Origin: Deltaproteobacteria bacterium
GTDB lineage: Bacteria; Desulfobacterota; DSM-4660; Desulfatiglandales; HGW-15
Reading direction: 5' to 3'
Assembly (NCBI GenBank): GCA_019310485.1
Contig: JAFDEF010000005.1
Coordinates: 38,583 to 102,582 of the forward strand
Length of the DNA stretch: 64,000 nt
The notes under the pieces were generated by a model that saw only the letters and a list, made by a program, of their open reading frames with translations, ran no database searches and was not told where the DNA came from. Shown piece by piece: positions 2,239 through 58,527 of the stretch. The translations under genes were made by a program, and so were the position numbers. Each line of letters opens with the position of its first letter. Position 1 is the first letter of the stretch.

Positions 2239-3234
2239 ATGTTACAAATCGGCACCGTCAAATTGGCGAATTGGCTGGTAATGGCACCAATGGCCGGCTA
2301 TACAAATCTTGCCTTTCGCCTTGTTGCCAAGGCTCAGGGCGCAGGGCTTGTTACAAGTGAAATGATTAGTGCCGCCGGCCTGACAAGGAGACAGAAGAAA
2401 ACTATCGAGTACCTGAAAAGCGTGCCTGCTGAGAAGCCCCTGGCAGTTCAAATCTTTGGTTCAAGCCCTGAAACGATGGCCAGGGCTGCAGAGATAGCAG
2501 TTGAGGCTGGCGCTGATATTGTGGATATCAATATGGGCTGTCCTGTCAAGAAGGTGGTGAAGACAGGGGCCGGAGCATCCCTGCTTCGGGATTTAAAACA
2601 AACTTCAAGAATCATCCGGGCAGTGAGGCATGTGTGCCCGGTGCCCCTAACAGCGAAAATCAGGCTAGGATGGTCTCGGGGGAAACCTGTTGCTCTTGAA
2701 ACGGCTCGTATGCTGCAAGATTGTGGGGTTGATGCTCTCACAATCCACCCGAGGTTTGCCACGGATGGGTTTTCTGCGCCTGCAGACTGGGAATGGATCA
2801 GGAAGGTCAAGGAGCACCTGAAAATCCCGGTTATAGGAAATGGTGATGTTATGGAAGCCCCCACTGCGATTAGAATGAAAAAGTCTACCGGTTGTGACGG
2901 GGTGATGATAGGCCGTGGAGGGCTAAAGAAGCCGTGGATTTTTAGGCAGATACTCAGGCTTGAAAAAGGAATGCCTGCTCCAGATCCTGATCTCTTGGAG
3001 AGGCGCAACCTCGTTATTAACCATGTCCGGCTCTTTCGCGAGTATATGCCCGAGAAAAGGGCGCTTCATGGGATATTGGGTGCCCTGATGTGGTATACCA
3101 AGGGTCTCCCAAACAGTGCCCATTTTAGGGAAAGCATTTCGAGGGCAAGGGATTTTGATTCATTGCTTGGGGCTGTTGATAGGTACTTTGCAGAACTAGA
3201 AAACGTCCCGGCTGCTCGTTACGAGGCTCAGTGA
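2239..3234 (+). CDS. dusB: tRNA-dihydrouridine synthase, DusB family
   Basis: MAPMAGYTNLAFR, DINMGCPVKKVVKTGAGASLL, LTIHPR, IGNGDV, GVMIGRGGLKKPWIF motifs. Confidence 0.93.
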   Translation: MLQIGTVKLANWLVMAPMAGYTNLAFRLVAKAQGAGLVTSEMISAAGLTRRQKKTIEYLKSVPAEKPLAVQIFGSSPETMARAAEIAVEAGADIVDINMGCPVKKVVKTGAGASLLRDLKQTSRIIRAVRHVCPVPLTAKIRLGWSRGKPVALETARMLQDCGVDALTIHPRFATDGFSAPADWEWIRKVKEHLKIPVIGNGDVMEAPTAIRMKKSTGCDGVMIGRGGLKKPWIFRQILRLEKGMPAPDPDLLERRNLVINHVRLFREYMPEKRALHGILGALMWYTKGLPNSAHFRESISRARDFDSLLGAVDRYFAELENVPAARYEAQ

Positions 3235-4967
3235 TGAAGGTCAAACTCGCCAGAATGGCGGGCTTCTGTATGGGCGTGCGCCGCGCGCTCGAGATGGTGC
3301 TCGCCGCTGCAAACAGGGGGGATGGCCCGCTGTATACCCTTGGCCCTCTGATCCACAATCGGCAGGTCATGGAGCTCCTTGAATCAAAGGGAGTGAAACC
3401 CGTTGAGGATGTCTCTGAGATAAAGAACGGCATTCTTGTTTTACGTGCCCACGGAATCCCTCCTCAAGACAGAAAACGGATTAAAGACTCAGGCCTGGCC
3501 CTAATTGATGCAACGTGCCCTCGTGTCGCCCGGGTCCAATCCATTATCAGGTATCACACACGCAGGGGTTACAGTGCAGTTATTGTAGGAGAGGAAGACC
3601 ACCCGGAGGTCATAGGCCTCATGGGTTACGGCAATGATCGGACATTCGTTATTAGCAACCCGAGCCAGGTGGAGCTTCTGCCCCCAGACGGAAAACTCAT
3701 AGTGGTAGCCCAAACAACGCAGGAAAAGCAGAACTATGACCAAATAGCGCAAAGGATCAAAGAGCGCGTTCCAGGTGCCATTGTGTTTGACACAATTTGC
3801 GATGCAACCTTGAACCGACAGCATGAAGTCAGGTCTCTGGCCCCTTACGTGGATGCCATGGTGGTTGTGGGGGGCTATCACAGCGGTAACACGCGGCGGC
3901 TTGCACAGGTTTCCCGATCAACAGGTATCCCCACATTTCACGTGGAGACCGAAAAGGATCTTGATAAAACAAAGCTCGCCTCACTGGAGGTGATTGGCGT
4001 TACTGCAGGGGCTTCCACGCCTAACTGGATGATAAAAAACGTGGTCAGAGAGCTTGAGAGCATAAGAACACGACGAGACTCCCGGCTTGTGAGATGGTCA
4101 AGGACTGCTATCAGGGGACTTCTCCAGACAAACATACTGGTGGCAGCAGGAGCCTTTTCACTATCTTATGCTGCCGCCATTCTGGCAGGCCGAAAACCGG
4201 ACTTCCTCCATCCCCTCATTGCGGCACTATACATTTACGCCATGCATGCTCTAAACCGCCTGCTTGACAAGGGAGCCAGCACTTATAACGACCCTGAAAG
4301 GGCAAGCTTTTACAGGCGATACCGTGCTCCTCTTGTGTTATCTGGTATTTCTTCCATAGCAGGGGCTCTTGTCTTGTCTTACATTCTTGGCTTTAGAGTG
4401 TTCCTAGCGGTACTGGGGTTGAGCGTTTTGGGGACAATCTACAGTGTACCTTTACTGCCAAGAGGCAGCAAAAAGGCGTGGCGTTATTATAAAATAAAGG
4501 ACATTCCGGGCTCAAAAACCCTTTCTCAGGCTCTGGCATGGGGAGCATTGATTGCGCTGGTTCCAACCCTGGAAAGCGCAAATCCTGCATGGGGGGTGGC
4601 TATAGTATCTTTTTGTTACATATTTTCAATTGTTTACGTCAGGTCAGCCCTGTTTGACATATTCCAGGCCCAGGGGGACCTAATCGTGGGCGCAGAGACC
4701 TTACCCATTACCCTGGGTGAGAGAAGAACTCTAGTTCTTTTGAAGGTCTTCGTTTTATTTGCCGCTGCGGTGCTTGCACTCGCGGCCCTGATCCGGGCTG
4801 CGGGTGGTTTTTCATTCTTTCTTCTCCTCTCATGCCTTTACCTTGGGCTCTGTGTTCTGGCTTATGAAAAACGCTGGCTTTACCCGGGCCCCCGCCTGGA
4901 AGCGCTTGTGGAAGGAAACCTCCTACTGATCGGCCTCCTCGCTCTGAGCTGGCAATTAATTACGTGA
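3231..4967 (+). CDS. ispH: IspH (4-hydroxy-3-methylbut-2-enyl diphosphate reductase) fused to a C-terminal UbiA-family prenyltransferase-like domain
   Basis: N-terminal ~280 aa carry IspH motifs (GFCMGVRRAL, RAHGIPP, DATCPRV, DTICDAT, GVTAGASTPNWMI); C-terminal ~290 aa multi-TM with NRLLDKGASTYNDPERASFYRRY and DIFQAQGDLIVGAETLPITLGERRT. Confidence 0.9.
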   Translation: MMKVKLARMAGFCMGVRRALEMVLAAANRGDGPLYTLGPLIHNRQVMELLESKGVKPVEDVSEIKNGILVLRAHGIPPQDRKRIKDSGLALIDATCPRVARVQSIIRYHTRRGYSAVIVGEEDHPEVIGLMGYGNDRTFVISNPSQVELLPPDGKLIVVAQTTQEKQNYDQIAQRIKERVPGAIVFDTICDATLNRQHEVRSLAPYVDAMVVVGGYHSGNTRRLAQVSRSTGIPTFHVETEKDLDKTKLASLEVIGVTAGASTPNWMIKNVVRELESIRTRRDSRLVRWSRTAIRGLLQTNILVAAGAFSLSYAAAILAGRKPDFLHPLIAALYIYAMHALNRLLDKGASTYNDPERASFYRRYRAPLVLSGISSIAGALVLSYILGFRVFLAVLGLSVLGTIYSVPLLPRGSKKAWRYYKIKDIPGSKTLSQALAWGALIALVPTLESANPAWGVAIVSFCYIFSIVYVRSALFDIFQAQGDLIVGAETLPITLGERRTLVLLKVFVLFAAAVLALAALIRAAGGFSFFLLLSCLYLGLCVLAYEKRWLYPGPRLEALVEGNLLLIGLLALSWQLIT

Positions 4968-25117: not shown

Positions 25118-25210
25118 ATTGATAATGAGCAACTAAAAGCTTAATTTTTATTGGATACTAGGAAAGTTTTTCATAAATGGCAAACAAAAAGTAGGGTAAA
25201 GGAGGATAGT

Positions 25211-25969
25211 GTGCCTCGTAAACCTTATTCTATTGGACTGGCTGGGAAGGGTGGTACTGGTAAAACAACAATCGCGGGATTGCTTGTTAAGTTTCTAGTG
25301 GAGAAGGGAAAGGGCCCGATTCTTGCTGTGGACGCTGACTCAAATGCGAATCTGAATGAAGTGCTGGGACTTGAAGTTGAGGAGACTCTTGGCGGCGCTC
25401 GTGAAGAAATGAAAAGAGGTGTGGCAACGGGCATGACCAAGGATGTTTTTATGGAAATGAAACTTGAGCAGGCAGTAGTTGAAGCAGACGGTTTTGACTT
25501 GATCGTAATGGGAAGGCCTGAGGGTCCGGGTTGTTATTGTGCGGCCAACTCTCTTCTCACCATATACCTAGAAAGACTCATAGGGAATTATGAATACGTG
25601 GTTATTGACAACGAGGCGGGTATGGAGCATATCAGCCGGCTTACTACGAACGATATCAATCTCTTACTCGTTGTATCCGATCCAACCAGGAGAGGAATAC
25701 AGTCGGCTGCCAGGATTTTCGAGTTGACCAAGGAGCTAGGCTTGAACATAGATCGTGAACTGCTGGTGGTCAACCAGGCCAGAGAGGGCCAATTTGATAA
25801 CCTATCCAAAACTGCTAAGGAGTTTAATCTCGACTTAACAGGTGTCATTCCAGAGGATGAGGAGATTCGAGAATTCGACTTGAACGGCAGACCCACTGTA
25901 CAACTAAGTCCCACCAGCAAAGCGCTGCAGGCAGCTTATTCAATTTTTGGAAATGTTTTAAGTCTATGA
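25211..25969 (+). CDS. cooC: CODH nickel-insertion/maturation ATPase CooC
   Basis: IGLAGKGGTGKTTIAGLLV deviant Walker A, LAVDADSNANLNEVLG, GRPEGPGCYCAAN, VIDNEAGMEHISR; RBS AAAGGAGG before GTG start. Confidence 0.93.
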   Translation: MPRKPYSIGLAGKGGTGKTTIAGLLVKFLVEKGKGPILAVDADSNANLNEVLGLEVEETLGGAREEMKRGVATGMTKDVFMEMKLEQAVVEADGFDLIVMGRPEGPGCYCAANSLLTIYLERLIGNYEYVVIDNEAGMEHISRLTTNDINLLLVVSDPTRRGIQSAARIFELTKELGLNIDRELLVVNQAREGQFDNLSKTAKEFNLDLTGVIPEDEEIREFDLNGRPTVQLSPTSKALQAAYSIFGNVLSL

Positions 25970-26383: not shown

Positions 26384-27988
26384 TTGGCCTTTGAAATTCC
26401 AAAACAGCCTTATTCAGGAAAAATCACCACTACAACTATTGGTACAGGAGAATCGGCCATCACATTGGGGGGGACGGACTCATACCCATTTCATTTATTC
26501 GAAGGACACATGCCCAATCCCCCAAAGATTGCCATGGAAATATGGGATTATGACCCCTCTGAGGAATGGCCGGCTGCAGCGGTGGAGCCTTTTAAAGACG
26601 TTATCTCCTCCCCTGAAGCATGGGCGAAGAAATGCATCGAGGAATACGGTGCGGATATCCTCGTTGTTCAGCTAAAGAGTACTGATCCTAATGGGATGGA
26701 CAGGGGTCCGGATGAAGTTTTGCAGGTCGTGAAGAAAATCGTGGATGCTGTCTCTGTGCCCATTGTATTCTGGGGGACCGCTAATAATCAAAAAGATGAA
26801 GAAGTTTTGAAAAAGATTGCAGAAGCATTTCAGGGCAAAAACTTCGGTCTTGCGCCCGTGGAGGAAGGCAACCATAAGGGCGTGGGTGCTGCTGCACTGG
26901 GCTACGGGCACATAGTAGTTGCCTCAACTCCGATTGACGTTAATTTAGCTAAACAACTAAATATCTTACTCGGAAATCTGGGCGTCCAGACAGACAGGAT
27001 CATAATTGATCCCACCACTGGGGGCCTTGGCTATGGCCTGGAGTACTCATACTCCGTTATGGAAAGAATCCGGATGGCAGCCCTTACCCAGGAAGATGAC
27101 AAGTTGCAGGTTCCAATGATTTCAAACATTGGAAATGAGATTTGGAAGTGTAAGGAGGCAGGTGAATCCATTGAAGAGGCACCTACCATGGGGGACCCTG
27201 AAAGGCGCGCCATCTTGATGGAGACGGTAGCCGCTGTGTGCTATCTTCTTGCAGGATCCGACCTGGTGATCTTGCGGCACCCTGAAAGCGTGAGACTCGT
27301 GAGAGCGTTCATTGAACGCATTAGTGAGGGCGGTTCCATGGTGGACCTCGCGGAGATCAACAAAAGAGCGGAGCTTAAAGAGGTCGATCTTGCCGCTATT
27401 TCTCCTGAGCCTGATCTGAGTATAGCCGAAGAGGAAGCTCCTCCAAAGGAAAAAGCAGCGAAGCCTGAAGTAAAAGAGGCCAAAGCACCTCCAAAGAAAG
27501 AGGCCAAGGCCCCACCCAAAAAAGAAGTAAAGCCTGAGGAGAAAGAGGTCAAAGGGCCTCCGAAAAAGGAAGAAAAGCCTGCCGAGGCTCCAAAGGTGGA
27601 AGAGAAAAAGGTTGTAGAGCTGAAGGCCAAGGAAGAGGAGGAAGCAAGGGAGAAGGTAGAAGCTGAAGCAAGAGCCAAGGCGGAAGCAGAAGCAAAGGCC
27701 AGGGCAGAAGAGGAGAAGAAGGCGGAAGCAGAAGCAAAAGCCAGGGCAGAAGAAGAGGCAAAGGCCAAAGCAGAAGCTGAGCGCAAAGCCAAGGCAGAAG
27801 CCAAGGCCAGAGAAAGGGAAGAGCTTCTTGCGCTCAGGCAGAAAAGAGCAGAAGAGAGGGAAAGGCTGGAAGCAGCAAGGAAGGCTGCAGAAGCAGGCAA
27901 GGTGCCCAAAACACCGGCTGCTCACCAGCTGAGCCTTGTGGATCGATTGATTATGAACGTTGATCGGATACACAGGCGCCAGTCCTAG
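26384..27988 (+). CDS. acsD: Acetyl-CoA decarbonylase/synthase corrinoid Fe-S protein small (delta) subunit with a long charged C-terminal extension
   Basis: IGTGESAITLGGTDSYPFHLFEG, GYGLEYSYSVMERIR; TTG start with RBS AAGGAGGG; residues ~350-510 rich in E/A/K. Confidence 0.92.
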   Translation: MAFEIPKQPYSGKITTTTIGTGESAITLGGTDSYPFHLFEGHMPNPPKIAMEIWDYDPSEEWPAAAVEPFKDVISSPEAWAKKCIEEYGADILVVQLKSTDPNGMDRGPDEVLQVVKKIVDAVSVPIVFWGTANNQKDEEVLKKIAEAFQGKNFGLAPVEEGNHKGVGAAALGYGHIVVASTPIDVNLAKQLNILLGNLGVQTDRIIIDPTTGGLGYGLEYSYSVMERIRMAALTQEDDKLQVPMISNIGNEIWKCKEAGESIEEAPTMGDPERRAILMETVAAVCYLLAGSDLVILRHPESVRLVRAFIERISEGGSMVDLAEINKRAELKEVDLAAISPEPDLSIAEEEAPPKEKAAKPEVKEAKAPPKKEAKAPPKKEVKPEEKEVKGPPKKEEKPAEAPKVEEKKVVELKAKEEEEAREKVEAEARAKAEAEAKARAEEEKKAEAEAKARAEEEAKAKAEAERKAKAEAKAREREELLALRQKRAEERERLEAARKAAEAGKVPKTPAAHQLSLVDRLIMNVDRIHRRQS

Positions 27989-28030
27989 AAAGCGTTGACC
28001 AATAATATAACACGAGGAGGAACCTTACCA

Positions 28031-30073
28031 ATGGCGACAGAAGGTGTCAAAGAAAAGGCAGCCGCTGCAAAGGTAAAAAAAGCGGCTAAGCCTCAAGAAC
28101 TGACTATTGACGTGGCCAGCATGGAAATGATTGAAAGGTCTCGGGAATTGGAAGTTGAGACCATTTTCGACAGGGCTGCCACAATGAAGCCGTGTAACAT
28201 AGGAGCACAGGGCACCTGCTGCAAGAATTGCGCACAGGGACCGTGCAGGCTTCCTTTACCAAAGAGCGGTATCGAAGGTGAAGATACCCGAAAAGGTTTG
28301 TGTGGTGCAACACCGCAAACAATTGCCGCTCGAAACTTCGCCCGGATGGTGGCCGGCGGGGCTGCTGCTCACTCGGATCATGGAAGAGGAGTGGCAGAGA
28401 CTTTCCTGGCCGCGGCAAGAAAAGAAACCGAAGATTACAGAATTAAGGATACCCAGAAGCTGCTGGAGATTGCACCTGATTTTGGAGTCGACATCACGGT
28501 GGAAGGAGAAAACGGAGAGGTCCTTGACAGGGATATTGATGAGATAGCCGTGGAGGTGGGCGAAAGAGCGCTGGCCCAGTGGGGACAGCAAACCGGCGAG
28601 GTTGCTACTGTCAAGAGAGCGCCGGGGCCACGATACGAGCTTTGGAAAAAGCTGGGCGTGGTTCCAAGAGGAATAGACCGTGAAATTGTTGAGATCATGC
28701 ACAGAACCCACATAGGGGTTGACCAGGACTATGAAAATATTTTGGAACAATGTACGAGGGCTGCCATCGCCGACGGGTGGGGCGGTTCGATGATTGCCAC
28801 TGATCTTCAGGATGTACTTTTTGGTTGTCCCTATCCGTTGAAGAGTTCCGCAAACCTTGGTGTTTTAAAGGAGGATCATGTGAACCTGGTGATTCACGGC
28901 CATGAACCTCTTTTAAGCGAGATGATAGTGCAGGCAGCCGAACTCCCGGAGATGCTCGAACTGGCGAAAGAAAAAGGCGCCAAAGGGATCCAGCTCAGTG
29001 GCATATGCTGCACTGCTAATGAAATTTTAATGCGCCACGGGGTGCCGCTGGCCGGAAACTTCCTCCAGCAGGAGCTGGCCATTATTACGGGAGCCGTGGA
29101 TGCGATGGTGGTTGACGTGCAGTGCATAATGGAAAATATCGCGAACGTGGCGCAATGTTTTCACACCAAGATCATTACAACAAACCCAAGAGCAAGAATA
29201 GCTTCCGGAGATACAGTTCACATTGAGTTTGACGAACACACTGCCTTTGAAGACGCAAAGAAAATAGTGAGAACCGCAATAGAGAATTTCCCAAACAGGG
29301 AAAAAGAGGTTATTATCCCTCGCCAGAGCTCCGACCTGGTGGCGGGCTTCAGCTACGAGGCGATCAACTACCACCTCGGAGGCACGTTCCGGGCATCTTA
29401 TACGCCCCTTAACGATAATATTATCAATGGCCGGATACGAGGTATCGGCGGCGTGGTTGGGTGAAACAATGCCAGAACCTCTCTGGATGAGGGGCACATC
29501 ACTGTAGTAAAAGAGTTGATCAAGCACGATGTCATTGTTCTCACCACGGGATGCAATGCAATTGCCTGCGCAAAGGCAGGGCTTTTGACGCCTGAGTCTG
29601 CAAAAGTTTACTGCGGCCCAGGCCTTGCCGAGGTTTGTGAGGCAGTGGGAATTCCACCGGTGCTGCACATGGGTTCCTGTGTGGATAACAGTAGGATTTT
29701 AATGGCGGCCACAGAAGTGGTTAAGGCAGGAGGCCTGGGTAAAGATATAAGTGAGGTTCCTGTTGCAGGTTCAGCACCTGAGTGGATGAGTGAAAAGGCC
29801 ATTAGTATTGGGCATTACTTTGTGGCATCAGGAGTTTATACCGTTTTTGGTGTGACCATGCCGGTTACCGGTGCACCGGTCTTTGAACACTACCTCTATA
29901 AGGAGCTGGAAGACATCTATGGCGGCATGTGGGATTGTGAACCTGATCCTGTTAAACACGCGCAGAAAATGATCGCCCATATCGACAAGAAACGAAAGGC
30001 CCTTGGCATTGATAAGGCCAGGGAGCGAGTGCTTTTCGATATGGCGGCGCGTCGTGAGATCGAAGCAGCTTAG
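28031..30073 (+). CDS. acsA: Anaerobic Ni-CODH catalytic subunit, candidate selenoprotein with in-frame TGA at 29462-29464 (residue 478)
   Basis: ORFs 27995-29464 and 29516-30073 are in the same frame, separated only by a TGA at the conserved Cys of GVVG[C]NN; C-cluster motifs GICCTANE, VDVQCIMEN, TTGCNAIA, GSCVDN present; RBS AGGAGG before ATG 28031. Confidence 0.88.
29470..29496 (+). promoter_or_regulatory. Candidate bacterial SECIS-like hairpin immediately downstream of the in-frame TGA
   Basis: TGCC-AGAA-CCTC-TCTGGAT-GAGG-GGCA: two 4-bp stems with 4-nt left bulge and 7-nt loop starting 18 nt after the TGA; loop lacks the usual early G, so match is partial. Confidence 0.45.
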
Positions 30074-30120: not shown

Positions 30121-32340
30121 ATGTCGAAACTAGTCGCATTTGCTGCCATACAGGGAGCCTACAATATAGTTTCCAAGGCAGAAGGAAAGTACAAAAGGGC
30201 TCTGGAGACGTATGGTGGAAGTCAGAAACTGGAATTTCCGAACACAGCTTACTACTTACCTATCATTTATTCTCTGACAGGTATGAAGGTTACAGACCTT
30301 GATTCTGCAAGAAAACCGCTTGAGTTTGCGAGAAAACTTTTACCCCCGCACATAAAGAAAGACTGTTACCTGCCCTACCTGGGCCCCCTGTTGGACGCCG
30401 GTATGGCAGCGCTCTTTGCCGAGGAGATCGTGGAAGCAATTCGTTACGTGGAGGATCCCGATTTCTACCAGCCTGAAGTGGAGGAGCCTGACATAGACAA
30501 TGGGAAGATCTGGCTTGGAGCCGCAGATGATGCAATCATGAGAAAGCGAGGCGTTGAATTTGTGGATGGAACAGCGCCCGGTTTTGCTGCCATCGTCGGC
30601 GCAGCTCCGGAGCCGGAGACAGCAAAGAAGATCGCTGAAGAGTACCAGGTAAAGACGATTTACGTTTTTATGGCTGCGAACCAGAATGGGACAACTTTTG
30701 CCGAACAGCTAATCGAAGCAGGGGTGCAGATCGGGTGGAATACACGTCTTGTGCCTTTTGGACCGGACATATCTGCCGCGGTTTTTGCTCTTGGTTTTGC
30801 CAATAGGGCGGGAATGTCATTTGGCGGTATTGCTCCCGGCGATTATAAGAGGCAGCTCAGGTACCAGAAAAACAGAATTTTTGCATTCGTGAACGCCCTG
30901 GGAGATGTTAACGCCGAGTGGGCTGCAAATGCAGCAGGCGCCCTCAACTGGGGTTTCCCCACGATCGCGGATACGGACATACCTGAGGTGTTACCCACAG
31001 GAGTTTGCACTTACGAGCATGTTGTCGCAAACGCGTCACATGATGAAATTGTCGCCAAGTCAATCGAGATACGCGGACTGAAAGTCACGATCAGCAAGGT
31101 GGACATCCCGCTTGCGTATGGACCGGCTTTCGAGGGCGAACGAGTGCGCAAGGATGATCTCTACCTTGAAATGGGTGGGGGAAAGACTCAGTGCACCGAG
31201 CTTTGCAAGATGGCCGAAATGAACGAGATCGAGGACGGCGAAGTGGAAGTTATCGGCCCGGACGTGACCGATGTGAAAAAAGGCGACCGACTGCCGCTCG
31301 GCATCTATGTGCAGGTGGCTGGAAGGCAGATGCAAGTGGACTTTGAACCGATTTTGGAGAGGCAGATACACCACCTTATTAACTATGCCCAAGGCATTAT
31401 GCATATTGGGCAGCGCGACATTTCCTGGATCAGGGTAAGCAACCAGGCAATAGAGAAAGGGTTTACCCTAAAGGATATTGGCGTAATTTTGCATGCAAAG
31501 TTTCATCAGGACTTCGGCAATATCCTGGACAAGGTGAAGGTTACCCTTTATACAAAGAAGGAGGATGTGGACAAGCTCACAAAGTGGGCAAGGAAGGAGT
31601 ATAAAACAAGAGATGACCGCGTGGAGAAAATGACGGATGAAAGCATTGAGATTTTTTACTCCTGCACCTTGTGCCAGTCATTTGCACCTAACCACGTTTG
31701 CGTTGTAAGCCCTGAAAGAACAGGACTTTGTGGTGCTTACAACTGGATGGATTGCAAGGCCTCCTACGAGATTAACCCCACTGGGCCGAACCAGCCTGTT
31801 GAAAAAGGAGAGTGCCTTGATCCAAAGCTCGGGCAGTGGAAAGGGGTCAATGAATTTGTTTATAAAGCCTCAAGGCAGGCCATTGACCACTATAACTTTT
31901 ACAGCCTGGTGCACGACCCAATGACCACGTGCGGGTGCTGCGAGTGTATAGCGGCGGTTTTGCCAGCCTGTAACGGCGTCATGACCGTACACAGGGACTA
32001 CAGCGGTGAGACGCCCTGCGGCATGAAATTCTCTACCCTTGCAGGTGTAATAGGCGGGGGGCAGTCTACCCCGGGTTTTGTAGGCCATTCGAAGTACAAT
32101 ATCACGCAGCGCAAGTTTATCGTGGGTGACGGAGGACTCCTGCGAATGGTCTGGATGCCTAAATCCTTGAAAGAGGAAATAAGGGAGCGGCTGATCAAGC
32201 GAGGAGAAGAGCTGGGCATGCCTGATTTAATTGACAGGATAGCGGATGAGACTATTGGGACCACTGAGGAGGAGATTCTACCTTTTCTCCAGGAAAAGGA
32301 TCATCCTGCTTTGAAAATGGAGCCCATTGTAAGTGAATAG
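30121..32340 (+). CDS. acsB: Acetyl-CoA synthase (CODH/ACS beta subunit)
   Basis: A-cluster motifs CTLCQSFAPNHVCVVSPERTGLCGAYNWMDCKA and MTTCGCCEC; 739 aa full bacterial-type length. Confidence 0.95.
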   Translation: MSKLVAFAAIQGAYNIVSKAEGKYKRALETYGGSQKLEFPNTAYYLPIIYSLTGMKVTDLDSARKPLEFARKLLPPHIKKDCYLPYLGPLLDAGMAALFAEEIVEAIRYVEDPDFYQPEVEEPDIDNGKIWLGAADDAIMRKRGVEFVDGTAPGFAAIVGAAPEPETAKKIAEEYQVKTIYVFMAANQNGTTFAEQLIEAGVQIGWNTRLVPFGPDISAAVFALGFANRAGMSFGGIAPGDYKRQLRYQKNRIFAFVNALGDVNAEWAANAAGALNWGFPTIADTDIPEVLPTGVCTYEHVVANASHDEIVAKSIEIRGLKVTISKVDIPLAYGPAFEGERVRKDDLYLEMGGGKTQCTELCKMAEMNEIEDGEVEVIGPDVTDVKKGDRLPLGIYVQVAGRQMQVDFEPILERQIHHLINYAQGIMHIGQRDISWIRVSNQAIEKGFTLKDIGVILHAKFHQDFGNILDKVKVTLYTKKEDVDKLTKWARKEYKTRDDRVEKMTDESIEIFYSCTLCQSFAPNHVCVVSPERTGLCGAYNWMDCKASYEINPTGPNQPVEKGECLDPKLGQWKGVNEFVYKASRQAIDHYNFYSLVHDPMTTCGCCECIAAVLPACNGVMTVHRDYSGETPCGMKFSTLAGVIGGGQSTPGFVGHSKYNITQRKFIVGDGGLLRMVWMPKSLKEEIRERLIKRGEELGMPDLIDRIADETIGTTEEEILPFLQEKDHPALKMEPIVSE

Positions 32341-32376: not shown

Positions 32377-33723
32377 ATGGGATTGACTGGAATTCAAATT
32401 TTTAAGCTATTGCCCAAGACGAACTGTGGTGAATGTGGGGTTCCCACCTGCCTGGCGTTTGCCATGAACCTGGCCGCCGGCAAGGCAGAACTTGATTCAT
32501 GTCCCTATGTATCGGATGAAGCAAGGGAAAAGCTGGCCGAGGCTTCGGCTCCTCCGATTCGACAGGTTGCTGTAGGGGCAGGTGTAAGGGCCTTCAAGAT
32601 CGGCGGCGAGACAGTCATGTTCAGGCATGAGAAGACTTTTTATAATCCCACGGCTGTAGCAGGGCTCATAACCTCGGACATAGACCCCGGTGCCCTTGAA
32701 AATAAGCTGAAGACCTGGAACGCATTTCAGTTTGAAAGGGTGGGTCTTAATCTGAGGCCTCAGGCCGTGGCATTAAAGGACGTTAACGGTGACGGGGCAG
32801 CATTTGCCGCAACAGCGAAAAAGATAGCAGAAGAGAGTGAGTTCAACCTTATTTTGATGACCGATAAGCCCGAAGTGATGAAGACGGCAGTGGAGGCGTG
32901 TGGTTTCAAGAGACCCCTCCTTTATGCCGCAACACCTGAAAATGCAGAGGAAATGGGCAACCTGGCAAAAGAGAAGCAGTTGCCTCTCGCTGTCAAGGCG
33001 GAGGGCCTGGAAAACCTTATTGCGCTTAGTGACAAACTCACCGGCATGGGGCTAAAAGATCTCGTGCTCGATTCCGGCTCAAGAGAGCTTAAAGATGCTT
33101 TCCAGGACCAGGTAATAATTCGCAGGGCACCCCTTAAGGCCGGAAACCGGTCCCTGGGATTCCCGACAATTACGTTCCCTTGTGAAATGGCGAGCAATCT
33201 TGACGTGGAAACCATGATTGCTTCAATGCTGATTGCAAAATACGCAGGGATTGTTGTTTTATCCGATTTCAGAGGGGATAGCCTTTTTCCGTTGCTGGTT
33301 GAAAGGCTGAACATATTCACGGATCCTCAGAGACCAATGACGGTTACACAGGGGATTTATGAAATTGGTGTGCCTGATGAGAATTCTCCGGTGCTCGTGA
33401 CCACCAACTTTTCACTGACCTACTTTATTGTCAGTGGCGAGATTGAGGGAAGCAGGATTCCCAGCTGGCTCCTGATCATGGATACCGAAGGACTTTCCGT
33501 CATGACTGCGTGGGCTGCGGGAAAGTTTTCGGGAGATGCCGTGGGTGGCTTTGTGAAAAAGTCAGGGATTGCTGATAAAATAAGCCACCGGAAGGTTATT
33601 ATTCCGGGATACGCTGCGGCCATCAGCGGTGATATGGAAGAGGAACTGCCTGACTGGGAGGTGATCATTGGGCCAAGGGATGCCTCCCTGATACCGAAAT
33701 TTCTAAAAGATATGGTAAAGTAA
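32377..33723 (+). CDS. acsC: Corrinoid/Fe-S protein large (gamma) subunit
   Basis: N-terminal 4Fe-4S motif LPKTNCGECGVPTCLAFAMNLA...CPY; order after acsB. Confidence 0.94.
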   Translation: MGLTGIQIFKLLPKTNCGECGVPTCLAFAMNLAAGKAELDSCPYVSDEAREKLAEASAPPIRQVAVGAGVRAFKIGGETVMFRHEKTFYNPTAVAGLITSDIDPGALENKLKTWNAFQFERVGLNLRPQAVALKDVNGDGAAFAATAKKIAEESEFNLILMTDKPEVMKTAVEACGFKRPLLYAATPENAEEMGNLAKEKQLPLAVKAEGLENLIALSDKLTGMGLKDLVLDSGSRELKDAFQDQVIIRRAPLKAGNRSLGFPTITFPCEMASNLDVETMIASMLIAKYAGIVVLSDFRGDSLFPLLVERLNIFTDPQRPMTVTQGIYEIGVPDENSPVLVTTNFSLTYFIVSGEIEGSRIPSWLLIMDTEGLSVMTAWAAGKFSGDAVGGFVKKSGIADKISHRKVIIPGYAAAISGDMEEELPDWEVIIGPRDASLIPKFLKDMVK

Positions 33724-33762: not shown

Positions 33763-33782
33763 CCCCGTGCTTCTGCACGGGG
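33763..33782 (+). other. Strong intergenic hairpin between acsC and acsE
   Basis: CCCCGTGC-TTCT-GCACGGGG perfect 8-bp stem. Confidence 0.7.
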
Positions 33783-33814
33783 CATTCCTACGGGGTAAAA
33801 TCCAGAGGGGGAGG

Positions 33815-34705
33815 ATGACCATGCTACTTATAGGCGAAAATCTGAATGTAATCAACAGGGTTATAGGAAAGGCTTTTAGAGAAAAGGACCCTCGGCCGAT
33901 CGCGGAGGAGGCGAAAAGGCAGAAGGAAAAAGGCATGGATTGGATTGACGTCAATCTGGGTCCTGCTCGTAAAGGAGGGCCCGAGTTAATGGAATTCGTG
34001 GTCAAAACGATCCAGGAAGAAATTGGGGATACTCCTCCCTTGAGTTTGGACACTTCCAATATAGAGGCCATGGAAGCAGGTCTTGCGGTTCATAAAGGCA
34101 AAGCAATTATCAACTCGATTATGTGCAGGGCTGAGAGATATGAAAAAATGATTCCTTTGGCCGTCAAATATAAAGCAAGCTTTATTGCCCTTATGTGGGG
34201 GCCGGAGGGTCTGCCAAGAGACGAGCATGAAAGGGGAGCGCTCGCCGCAGAACTCATTTACGCTGCAAACGAAGCTGGCATTCCCAATGAAGACATATTC
34301 GTGGACGGTGTTGTGACACCTTTGAATATCCAGCAGCCTCAGTTGATGAGTCTCCTGGCTTTTCAAGAGATGCTTCAGGATATGTTCCCCGGCATAAAAT
34401 CTACATGCGGGCTTTCAAATGTCTCAAATGGACCTCCGACTCACCTGAGGCCGATCATCAACCAGACTTACATGGTCATGCTCGAACGCAAGGGCATGTA
34501 TTCCTGTATTGCGGATGCGTATGACGACAAATTGATTGATATCGCCAGGGGGAGGAGACCCGATATCGTTGAAGTCATACACAAAGTCATGGACGGGGAG
34601 GAGATTGACATGGACTCTCTGTCCAAGGAACTCCAGGACTATGTCAAGACAGCACGTGTAATCCTGGGCCATACCCTGTATTCAGACTCTTGGCTGGAAG
34701 TATAG
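33815..34705 (+). CDS. acsE: Methyltetrahydrofolate:corrinoid/Fe-S protein methyltransferase
   Basis: Pterin-binding fold: LLIGENLNVINRVIG, DWIDVNLGPA, LSLDTSN, GLSNVSNG; RBS GGGGGAGG. Confidence 0.92.
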   Translation: MTMLLIGENLNVINRVIGKAFREKDPRPIAEEAKRQKEKGMDWIDVNLGPARKGGPELMEFVVKTIQEEIGDTPPLSLDTSNIEAMEAGLAVHKGKAIINSIMCRAERYEKMIPLAVKYKASFIALMWGPEGLPRDEHERGALAAELIYAANEAGIPNEDIFVDGVVTPLNIQQPQLMSLLAFQEMLQDMFPGIKSTCGLSNVSNGPPTHLRPIINQTYMVMLERKGMYSCIADAYDDKLIDIARGRRPDIVEVIHKVMDGEEIDMDSLSKELQDYVKTARVILGHTLYSDSWLEV

Positions 34706-34797: not shown

Positions 34798-35643
34798 GTG
34801 GATAAGGAAAAGCAAAACATCCCGGTTATGACACCGGCAGAACTTGAAAGATTAGACCAAGAAAAGACTATTAAGCACAGGCTCTCAAAGATCGGGCGAA
34901 AAATACTTGTAATGAGCGGCAAAGGAGGTGTGGGGAAAAGTACGGTGGCCGCTTACATGGCCTTAATCTTGAGCAAGAATGGCAAGCAGGTCGGCCTTTT
35001 AGACGTTGATCTCCACGGGCCAACAATACCTCATCTTCTAGACATTCGTGGCGGGCTGGTAATCTCTGAAGATGGGCTTGTGAAGCCTTATTTTGTTTCA
35101 GATAGATTAAGAGCAGTTTCGCTGGAGATGCTGGTTCATGACAAAGATGCAGCGGTTATCTGGAGAGGGCCGATAAAGATAAGTGCGATCAAGCAATTCA
35201 TTTCTGACATTGACTGGGGTCAAATAGACTACCTCATCATAGATTCACCCCCCGGAACCGGGGACGAGCCTCTTACTGTAGCGCAGACTATCCCCGAAGC
35301 AGAAGCTATTATTGTGACCACCCCTCAAGAGATATCGCTTGCAGATGTCAGGAAAAGCATTAATTTTTGCCGCCAGGTAAATATGCGGATTGTCGGTGTT
35401 GTTGAAAACATGAGTGGGCTCATGTGCCCGCATTGCCACCAACCTATATCTATCTTTGGCTCGGGTGGCGGCCAAAAGATGGCGGATCAAAAGGGGGTTG
35501 CTTTTTTGGGGACGATTCCCATTGAGCCTCTTATGGTGGAATACGGGGACAGTGGGCACCTTGCTGATCTCGCCTCAAGGAATGACCTGGGAATAAACAG
35601 CGCATACCAAGAAGTACTTGATAAGGTGGAAAGAACCGGCTGA
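34798..35643 (+). CDS. Mrp/NBP35-family P-loop ATPase (Fe-S carrier)
   Basis: VMSGKGGVGKSTVAAYMAL, DVDLHGPTIPHLL, IDSPPGTGDEPLT, GLMCPHCHQ CxxC motif. Confidence 0.9.
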   Translation: MDKEKQNIPVMTPAELERLDQEKTIKHRLSKIGRKILVMSGKGGVGKSTVAAYMALILSKNGKQVGLLDVDLHGPTIPHLLDIRGGLVISEDGLVKPYFVSDRLRAVSLEMLVHDKDAAVIWRGPIKISAIKQFISDIDWGQIDYLIIDSPPGTGDEPLTVAQTIPEAEAIIVTTPQEISLADVRKSINFCRQVNMRIVGVVENMSGLMCPHCHQPISIFGSGGGQKMADQKGVAFLGTIPIEPLMVEYGDSGHLADLASRNDLGINSAYQEVLDKVERTG

Positions 35644-56468: not shown

Positions 56469-58379
56469 TTAAGTACTACTTTTTCTTAGAATGCGCTTGT
56501 CTCCTACCCTGACTGTCACCTGGCTGTGGTCAAAATATTCAAGCAGAGGAATCGTATATTTTCTCGAAGCGTTGGTCATGCTTTTAAACTCGGGAGTGTC
56601 TATCTCTCCATTTTGTCTCAAGAACTCAATCAATTTTTTCCTGAGGCCCTCAATAACATTCCTGTGGAAGTAAAGATCCTCTTTCACCTTGACCAGGATA
56701 CCGTCTTTTACCATGACCTGGAGAAGTTCATCAGCATCACTTCCGCCAAGCTTTTCTTTCACTTCTCTAAAATAAGGAGGTTGAAGGCCCCCCTTGAGAT
56801 AAATTTCCTCGATTTTGCTCCTTACTTTTTCCTGGTCTCTGGCAAGGGTGACCCTGTGTCCTTTCAATCGGAGTATTTCCCTTTCTTGAACTATGACGTT
56901 TTCTTCTACGAGCTGGTTGACAAGGTAGTTGAAAAGCTTTTGATTATCCGACCATTTCAGCCTGGAGCGGAGCTCTTCCTTTAGGAGCCCCCCCTTGAGG
57001 GGGAAGTCACGGTGATATTCTGCAAGTATTTTTGTGATTTCATCCCTTGCTTTCCCCAAGAAGTCAGCATGCAAGAAAAGACCGCTTTCCTTGTCAAAAA
57101 GCATTATCTTTTTCTGGGCAGCCAGGTCATTCAATATTTTTTCCAGGCTTTTCTTGCTCGCGTTTGTCAGGAAAGGCAAAATTGAGCGCTTTACTCCTTT
57201 GTAGCGACCTGAGGCAATGTATTGTTCCGTGATCCTGCCAAGATCTCCACTGTCCAGAACCTTGAGTTCTGCCAGCACCTTTTCGGAAAAACGCTTCTTT
57301 TTTTGCGGAAGAGCGTTCAGGATCTCGCCACCTCCTATGGTTCTTACGGGGGAGTAACTTCGCAGCACATAGCGGTCGTGGGCAAGGACCACTGTGGGCT
57401 GTTCGAGCCTTATCTGAGAATAGCAACGATCTCCCGGCTTCAGCTCATCCCTGTCAAGTAGAATAACGGTTGAGATGATTTCACTCGTTCCGGTATGGAA
57501 CCTTACTTTGGCCCTGTTTTTCAGCATTCGGGGGGCACTCGGCAGCAGTTCCAGCACCACGTCAACCATGTAGGTGGGTTTTAGGGAGTCCTCGCTTGCA
57601 AGAACATCGCCGCGCTGAATCTGTCTTTTTTCTACACCCTGAAGATTAATTGCAGTCCTGAGCCCTGCCCTGGAATGGCTGACCTCTCGATTGTGGACCT
57701 GGATTCCCCTTACACGGGTGCTGAACCCTTCCGGATAAATCGTTACTTCATCCCCGGTGTTAATCTCTCCCGATATGGTAGTGCCCGTAATAACCGTGCC
57801 AAACCCTTTCATTGTAAAAACGCGGTCAATGGGGAGTCGGAAAAAATTACCGGTTTCTCTCTCTGGAATTTCCTTCACAAGTTCGTCAAGTACCCCCAAT
57901 AATTCTTCAAGCCCCTGGCCTGTAAGGGATGAGACTTCAACAACCGGTGCATCTTCCAGGAACGTTCCTGAAAGAAACTCCCTCACGTCCTCCCTTACCA
58001 GCTCAAGCCATTCCTCATCCACCATATCTATCTTGGTAAGGACAACAAGCCCCCGTTTCACTTTCAACAGCTCGCAGATCTCCAGGTGCTCCCTGGTTTG
58101 AGGCATTACACCCTCGTCTGCGGCAATTATCATGGCAACAAGATCAATGCCCGTAGCGCCTGCAACCATGTTCTTGACGAATTTTTCGTGGCCGGGCACG
58201 TCCACGATCCCCAGCACCTGTCCGCTCGGCAATTGGAGGTGCGCAAAGCCCAGTTCAATTGTTATCCCCCGTTCTTTTTCCTCTTTTAGCCGGTCGGTAT
58301 CTATACCGGTTAACGCCTTAATAAGGGCAGTCTTACCGTGATCAATGTGCCCTGCTGTTCCCAGGATTATCTGCTTCAT
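56469..58379 (-). CDS. selB: Selenocysteine-specific translation elongation factor SelB
   Basis: [49 protein letters not shown]-terminal winged-helix repeats. Confidence 0.95.
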
Positions 58380-58527
58380 TACTGTTGCACCTTTTAGCAT
58401 TATAATACCCTATACTCAGTTAAATAAAAGGAATGCCAAATATTGTCAACTTATACACCCGCGGCCCTCAAACCTTCAATAAATTAGTTGACCCCAACAT
58501 TTGGTTTTGCTAAATAAGAATTACAAA

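Follow-up and report, generated by a model that had tools for sequence, protein, structure and literature searches.

Predicted selenocysteine at a C-cluster ligand position of a Ni,Fe-CODH from uncultured anaerobic bacteria

Results

The 64-kb window (i.e., the whole stretch of DNA analyzed here) carries a complete acs operon on the forward strand. Its genes encode, in order, a CooC/MinD-like ATPase that is a probable CODH nickel maturation factor (25151..25969, inferred from position and family), the corrinoid protein delta subunit AcsD (26384..27988; NF003377, 595 bits), the Ni,Fe-CODH catalytic subunit AcsA/CooS (28031..30073), acetyl-CoA synthase AcsB (30121..32340; NF040764, 1116.9 bits), the corrinoid protein gamma subunit AcsC (32377..33723; NF003195, 628.8 bits), an AcsE-like methyltransferase (33767..34705) and a MrpORP/ApbC-like Fe-S carrier ATPase (34798..35643). 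The initial annotation had called the operon intact apart from the CODH gene, and all of these genes are indeed present. The C-terminal part of the acsD ORF (~residues 350-534) is a low-complexity extension that matches only TolA-like repeats; homologues of AcsD align over ~347 residues. Between 16430 and 25151, the operon is divergent from the adjoining dnaA, beyond which lie dnaN, gyrB and gyrA.

As the initial annotation stated, the ORF track splits acsA/cooS in two (27995-29464 and 29516-30073), and the two parts share one frame with a single TGA between them. Read through, this frame runs from an ATG at 28031 to a TAG at 30071-30073 and specifies 680 residues, the sole in-frame TGA (29462-29464, forward strand) being codon 478. 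A GAGGAGG ribosome-binding site lies upstream on the same strand (28014..28020), in keeping with the good site claimed earlier. The read-through product matches TIGR01702 with 628.7 bits (cut-off 478), and its AlphaFold2 model (mean pLDDT 89.5) matches CODH crystal structures across nearly the full length (Foldseek TM ~0.88/0.96). By both family profile and fold, the protein is a Ni,Fe-CODH catalytic subunit. The model was built with Cys at residue 478 and without metals, and is hence uninformative on the C-cluster itself. Where the window has other same-frame TGA junctions with long flanks, we read them as boundaries between genes or as shadow ORFs; the TGA in the CODH gene is far beyond chance, because 14 other genomes have a TGA at exactly codon 478.

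Codon 478 aligns with a Cys in every CODH compared, and the next conserved Cys, residue 508, lies exactly 30 residues downstream, the spacing that had been claimed. The other C-cluster regions, also said to be present, were found as His291, Cys326/327, Cys365, Cys508 and Cys550, along with Lys589. Four of the five C-cluster Cys positions are thus occupied (Cys327, Cys365, Cys508 and Cys550, besides His291) and the fifth is the UGA, such that the full set of one His and five Cys, including the Ni-binding Cys, is met only if the UGA is read as Sec or Cys. Given the GVVGCNN motif and the 30-residue gap to the next ligand, the UGA corresponds to Cys446 of Carboxydothermus hydrogenoformans CODH-II, which we take to be an Fe ligand of the C-cluster, as established from the CODH-II structure. 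This correspondence, already given in the initial annotation, is supported by solved CODH sequences and by the literature. When aligned with Desulfovibrio vulgaris CODH (6vwy), the UGA falls on position 448 of that protein, with its Cys478 thirty residues further and its Cys519 at the GSC motif (counted by hand). The active-site residues listed for CODH-II are Cys446, Cys476, Cys526, Cys333, His261 and Cys295 (PMC10502027); in the D. vulgaris enzyme, Ni is bound by Cys519, the unique Fe by His266 and Cys302, and one cubane Fe by Cys340 (PMC6168284). Direct coordination of selenium to a C-cluster Fe is inferred from this position only, without selenium data.

Recurrence of the TGA in homologues had been proposed as a check. 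A pattern search detected TGA at codon 478 in 15 of the 85 genomes of the window's order (the 85 being the whole class as sampled), versus TGC or TGT at this codon in all 95 Cys homologues compared; the same search found none among ~380 genomes of the phylum sampled outside the order. In a protein search of 326 phylum genomes, an in-frame TGA was flagged in only three genomes, all of this order, among the ~150 CODH matches listed. Other CODH copies flagged with an internal TGA, in G003, G018 and G038, have Cys at codon 478 and no stop in their aligned parts. Among viral contigs, the pattern gave a single, unrelated match (L163). The carriers appear to be mostly metagenome assemblies; one carrier, G052, consists of a single 5.09-Mb contig. 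The gene is full or nearly full length in 14 carriers, with the TGA as its sole internal stop and no frameshift; in the fifteenth (G035) it is spread across two contigs. The acs operon is syntenic among carriers, and the ratio pN/pS among them is 0.107 both before and after the TGA. The order dnaA-cooC-acs is retained in most carriers with contigs long enough.

Shortly 3' of the UGA lies a bSECIS-like hairpin, CCUCUC-UGGAU-GAGGGG (29478..29494, forward strand). This 17-nt element begins 13 nt past the UGA and pairs nucleotides 17-22 with 28-33 (the U of UGA being 1) around the loop UGGAU. Published bSECIS limits are a loop of 3-9 nt, a stem of 4-16 bp, a G in the first two loop positions, a spacing of 16-37 nt and an MFE of at most -7.5 kcal/mol (PMC13188914). 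With 6 bp, a 5-nt loop containing GG, 19 nt from UGA to loop and -8.9 kcal/mol, the window's hairpin meets these limits, the rules having been applied by us and not through the published program. All 15 carriers share the consensus CCUCKC-UGGAU-GMGGGG. Across 14 distinct carrier sequences, standard pairs fill 98.8% of stem cells, compared with 40-66% when partners are slid, and the fifth stem pair is fully compensated (G-C in eight, U-A in six). This covariation is limited to one pair, the others hardly varying. One U-A group (L115, L121, L021) is nested within the G-C group on a quick tree; therefore, if that tree is right, the pair switched more than once.

The hairpin distinguishes Sec genes from Cys genes. 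The mean energy of the stretch is -9.6 kcal/mol in the former versus -1.4 kcal/mol in the 95 Cys genes, none of which is fully paired or reaches the window's energy. When synonymous codons were drawn at random, 0.6% of draws reached the observed energy with the window's peptide and 0.06% did so with the common Ala form. The protein, too, seems to have been altered by the hairpin: every carrier has Leu (CTG) at +7, where His (CAC/CAT) is common, which is what codon constraint by the RNA loop would predict. The stretch after the UGA, which had been singled out for a bSECIS check, thus fits the published rules and covaries. Support is not uniform, as the G079 stem has one A-G mismatch and a weaker bare hairpin (-5.3 kcal/mol), and an Rfam search of four loci matched no model. 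Folded alone, the 39 nt after the window's UGA exceed shuffles in stability by only a modest margin (z -1.07), and a competing fold exists; the case for a recoding signal therefore rests on comparison and not on one fold.

Variability is also low just upstream of the UGA. The 14 complete carriers all have the same codons at -9 (ATA), -7 (GGT), -2 (GTT) and -1 (GGG), positions that vary in Cys genes, and synonymous variability in Sec genes reaches its whole-gene minimum in 12-codon windows spanning or just preceding the UGA, a region that is ordinary in Cys genes. RNAalifold proposed two possible forward-strand hairpins here: AUAC/GUAU (29435..29445), fully paired in 14/14 Sec genes versus 18/95 Cys genes, and a small GUUG/CAAU hairpin with the UGA in its loop (29456..29470), fully paired in 14/14 versus 24/95. 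With the window's peptide fixed, 14% and 23% of random synonymous draws produce them. The 29435-29470 block may be an extended recoding element, yet a short block spread by recombination would give a like pattern.

The window encodes the selenocysteine-specific elongation factor SelB on the reverse strand (56469..58400; TIGR00475, 388.8 bits, cut-off 242.25). The initial annotation was correct as to the gene; the end it gave, 58379, reflects another choice of start. It had further proposed a search for selA, selC and selD, all of which were found in the genome: selA; a tRNA-Sec gene (C28:42982-43075, 69 bits); and a selD (L187, C2:11800-13800) with an in-frame TGA of its own (KGSG-U-ASKLPPGDL), the SelD of this genome probably being itself a selenoprotein. 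Formate dehydrogenase, taken as a Sec control in this genome, presented no internal stop with the profile used, and selD took its place as the control. In fragmented bins of other carriers, selA was not found in G049 and G061, nor a strong tRNA-Sec match in G008, G049, G063 and G073. Sec machinery occurs in nearly all members of the order, and is therefore required but non-discriminating. With a Cys-aligned UGA, a bSECIS-type hairpin, compensatory change within it and selA, selB, selC and selD, those criteria for a bacterial selenoprotein gene that can be read from sequence are fulfilled.

A second intact CODH, which the initial annotation had considered a possible objection, is absent from this assembly. 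No other CODH match was found in G041 and G045, two carriers that are 95% complete, and in these two the Sec form may serve the pathway alone. Several others (e.g., G029, G031 and G052) have a second, Cys-type CODH, ~56% identical. Elsewhere in the window's own genome (L113, C56:66000-72000, at 3053-3421) we observed an isolated CODH-like fragment of 113 residues that is 50% identical to residues 279-391, with the rest of the gene absent and unrelated neighbors.

Sec genes are interspersed with Cys genes, with four changes on the best trees and three to four over bootstrap trees; gains, losses or transfers therefore occurred. One Cys gene (L033; DTYH01000156.1, 3001-5049) is 90% identical and groups, on the quick tree, with that of the window; it has TGT at the codon, a retained 5' arm and a decayed 3' arm of the hairpin; judged from these features, it is an apparent natural Sec-to-Cys reversion. 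Another (L005) has TGC and a partly similar loop. Exclusive monophyly of the Sec genes was rejected (AU p 0.02), and their monophyly including these two relict-looking Cys genes was not (p 0.21). Neither one origin with losses nor several gains or transfers is excluded by the tree tests, and the number remains unresolved.

Discussion

We propose, with a probability of roughly 93%, that this gene encodes a Sec-containing Ni,Fe-CODH of the CODH/ACS complex, its UGA being decoded by SelB and tRNA-Sec via the hairpin. SelB with Sec-tRNA would bind the 17-nt hairpin and deliver Sec at codon 478, where it would replace the invariant Cys ligand and bind, as a selenolate, to one Fe of the [Ni-4Fe-4S] C-cluster. 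The proposal is strongly supported by comparative sequence evidence, i.e., an intact frame under selection, a covarying hairpin, Sec machinery and the identity of the ligand position. Selenium insertion, Se-Fe coordination and any functional benefit are inferred, with no protein or selenium measurement behind them. The same interpretation was put forward in the initial annotation, and the recurrence of the TGA, the covarying hairpin, the four sel genes, the lack of a second CODH and the ligand position all speak for it. We also find it likely, though with appreciably less confidence, that Sec sits directly on a C-cluster Fe, that selenium alters catalysis or oxidation recovery in the Wood-Ljungdahl pathway, and that the signal may extend upstream as two hairpins. 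By analogy with [NiFeSe] hydrogenases, we infer that the benefit would probably lie in altered redox properties or cluster potential, or in easier recovery from oxidation.

Sec could be inserted with the main role of a selenium-dependent switch, where CODH would be truncated without selenium and a Cys-CODH paralogue would take over. In methanogens, Vhc replaces Vhu in such a manner, and the Cys-type copies of G029, G031 and G052 would suit this arrangement. However, the two 95% complete carriers and this assembly lack a second intact CODH, and a switch leaves the choice of ligand position unexplained. We therefore regard it as unlikely to be the main role, although it is compatible with, and not exclusive of, the Sec-CODH proposed above.

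UGA is the leakiest stop codon, and inefficient ordinary readthrough by a near-cognate tRNA (e.g., Trp), without any Sec, has a precedent in the same enzyme. The acsA of Clostridium autoethanogenum (CAETHG_1621/1620) likewise has one in-frame TGA and a reported full-length product, and its authors judged Sec unlikely (PMC4895105). There, however, a Ser codon (TCA in relatives) lying ~50 codons before that of the ligand has become TGA, in only one species among the acetogens compared, with no SECIS detected by algorithm (PMC4895105). The CODH described here does not fit that type of readthrough, as position, recurrence and hairpin all differ: its TGA occupies the codon of an invariant ligand Cys and does so in 15 species-level genomes, accompanied by a covarying hairpin, and Sec machinery is available. 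Moreover, we infer that the enzyme would be inactive with Trp in place of a cluster ligand. We thus hold readthrough without Sec to be very improbable.

Less probable still is a nonsense mutation that left a dead gene or a shortened protein. The ORF caller does give two ORFs, and the genome does hold a fragment of another CODH, but purifying selection is as strong after the TGA as before it, the operon is conserved, and the codon recurs in 15 carriers, 14 of whose genes have no frameshift or second stop. Starts after the TGA lack a clear ribosome-binding site, a truncated product of 477 residues would miss the ligands Cys508 and Cys550, and in two carriers of 95% completeness no further CODH was matched. 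Genome-wide reassignment of UGA to an amino acid (e.g., codes 4 or 25) would account for an in-frame UGA within a conserved gene but is already refuted, since UGA ends dnaA, gyrB, the cooC-like and mrp-like genes and others in the window, and occurs just once across the 680 codons of the CODH gene. An assembly or sequencing error, conceivable in a draft of 103 contigs, can be set aside, as 14 further assemblies, the single-contig G052 among them, share the TGA despite many synonymous differences.

CODH, a key enzyme in the Wood-Ljungdahl pathway, also serves as a model for catalysts of CO2 reduction. The Sec-CODH predicted here would be a kind of selenoprotein from uncultured anaerobic bacteria in which Sec stands in for a metal-site Cys of a CO2/CO-converting enzyme. 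If true, this natural ligand substitution would offer a ready means to probe the C-cluster, by 77Se spectroscopy or at the Se K-edge, and a test of whether selenium protects or speeds a Ni-Fe-S center. A central carbon-fixation enzyme would thereby join the selenoproteins, linking selenium supply to anaerobic carbon metabolism. Standard annotation splits such genes, so that CODH would be scored as broken in these organisms.

The initial annotation knew of no described Sec ligand to the C-cluster, and this stands within the sources searched: the CODH catalytic subunit is absent from a catalogue, dated May 2026, that covers 119 families and subfamilies of prokaryotic selenoproteins (PMC13188914), and no report of Sec in CODH was found in the open-licence PMC literature, subscription papers and preprints being outside its scope. 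The C. autoethanogenum acsA described above was the one related case found there. HgcA appears among known selenoproteins under the name 'CO dehydrogenase/acetyl-CoA synthase gamma subunit'. Its link to the CODH/ACS system is in the name; the protein is a corrinoid protein homologous to AcsC and not the CODH catalytic subunit. Class III HCP has a homologous fold, and its Cys347, equivalent to the position discussed here, bears a persulfide (PMC10502027); this is extra sulfur on a Cys and not encoded selenium, in another cluster and for another reaction. By analogy, it suggests that the position equivalent to Cys446 and HCP Cys347 may tolerate varied chalcogen chemistry. The [NiFeSe] hydrogenases and Sec formate dehydrogenases likewise use Sec for a Cys metal ligand in redox metalloenzymes of anaerobes, including sulfate reducers, whereas here the enzyme and the metal site are different, the predicted ligand being to an Fe of a Ni-Fe-S cubane. 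Closest are the known Ni,Fe-CODHs (C. autoethanogenum 6ytt, D. vulgaris 6b6v and C. hydrogenoformans CODH-II), with which the present protein shares its fold, operon context and other C-cluster ligands, but from which it differs in that the Cys446 position is encoded by a UGA with a SECIS-type hairpin.
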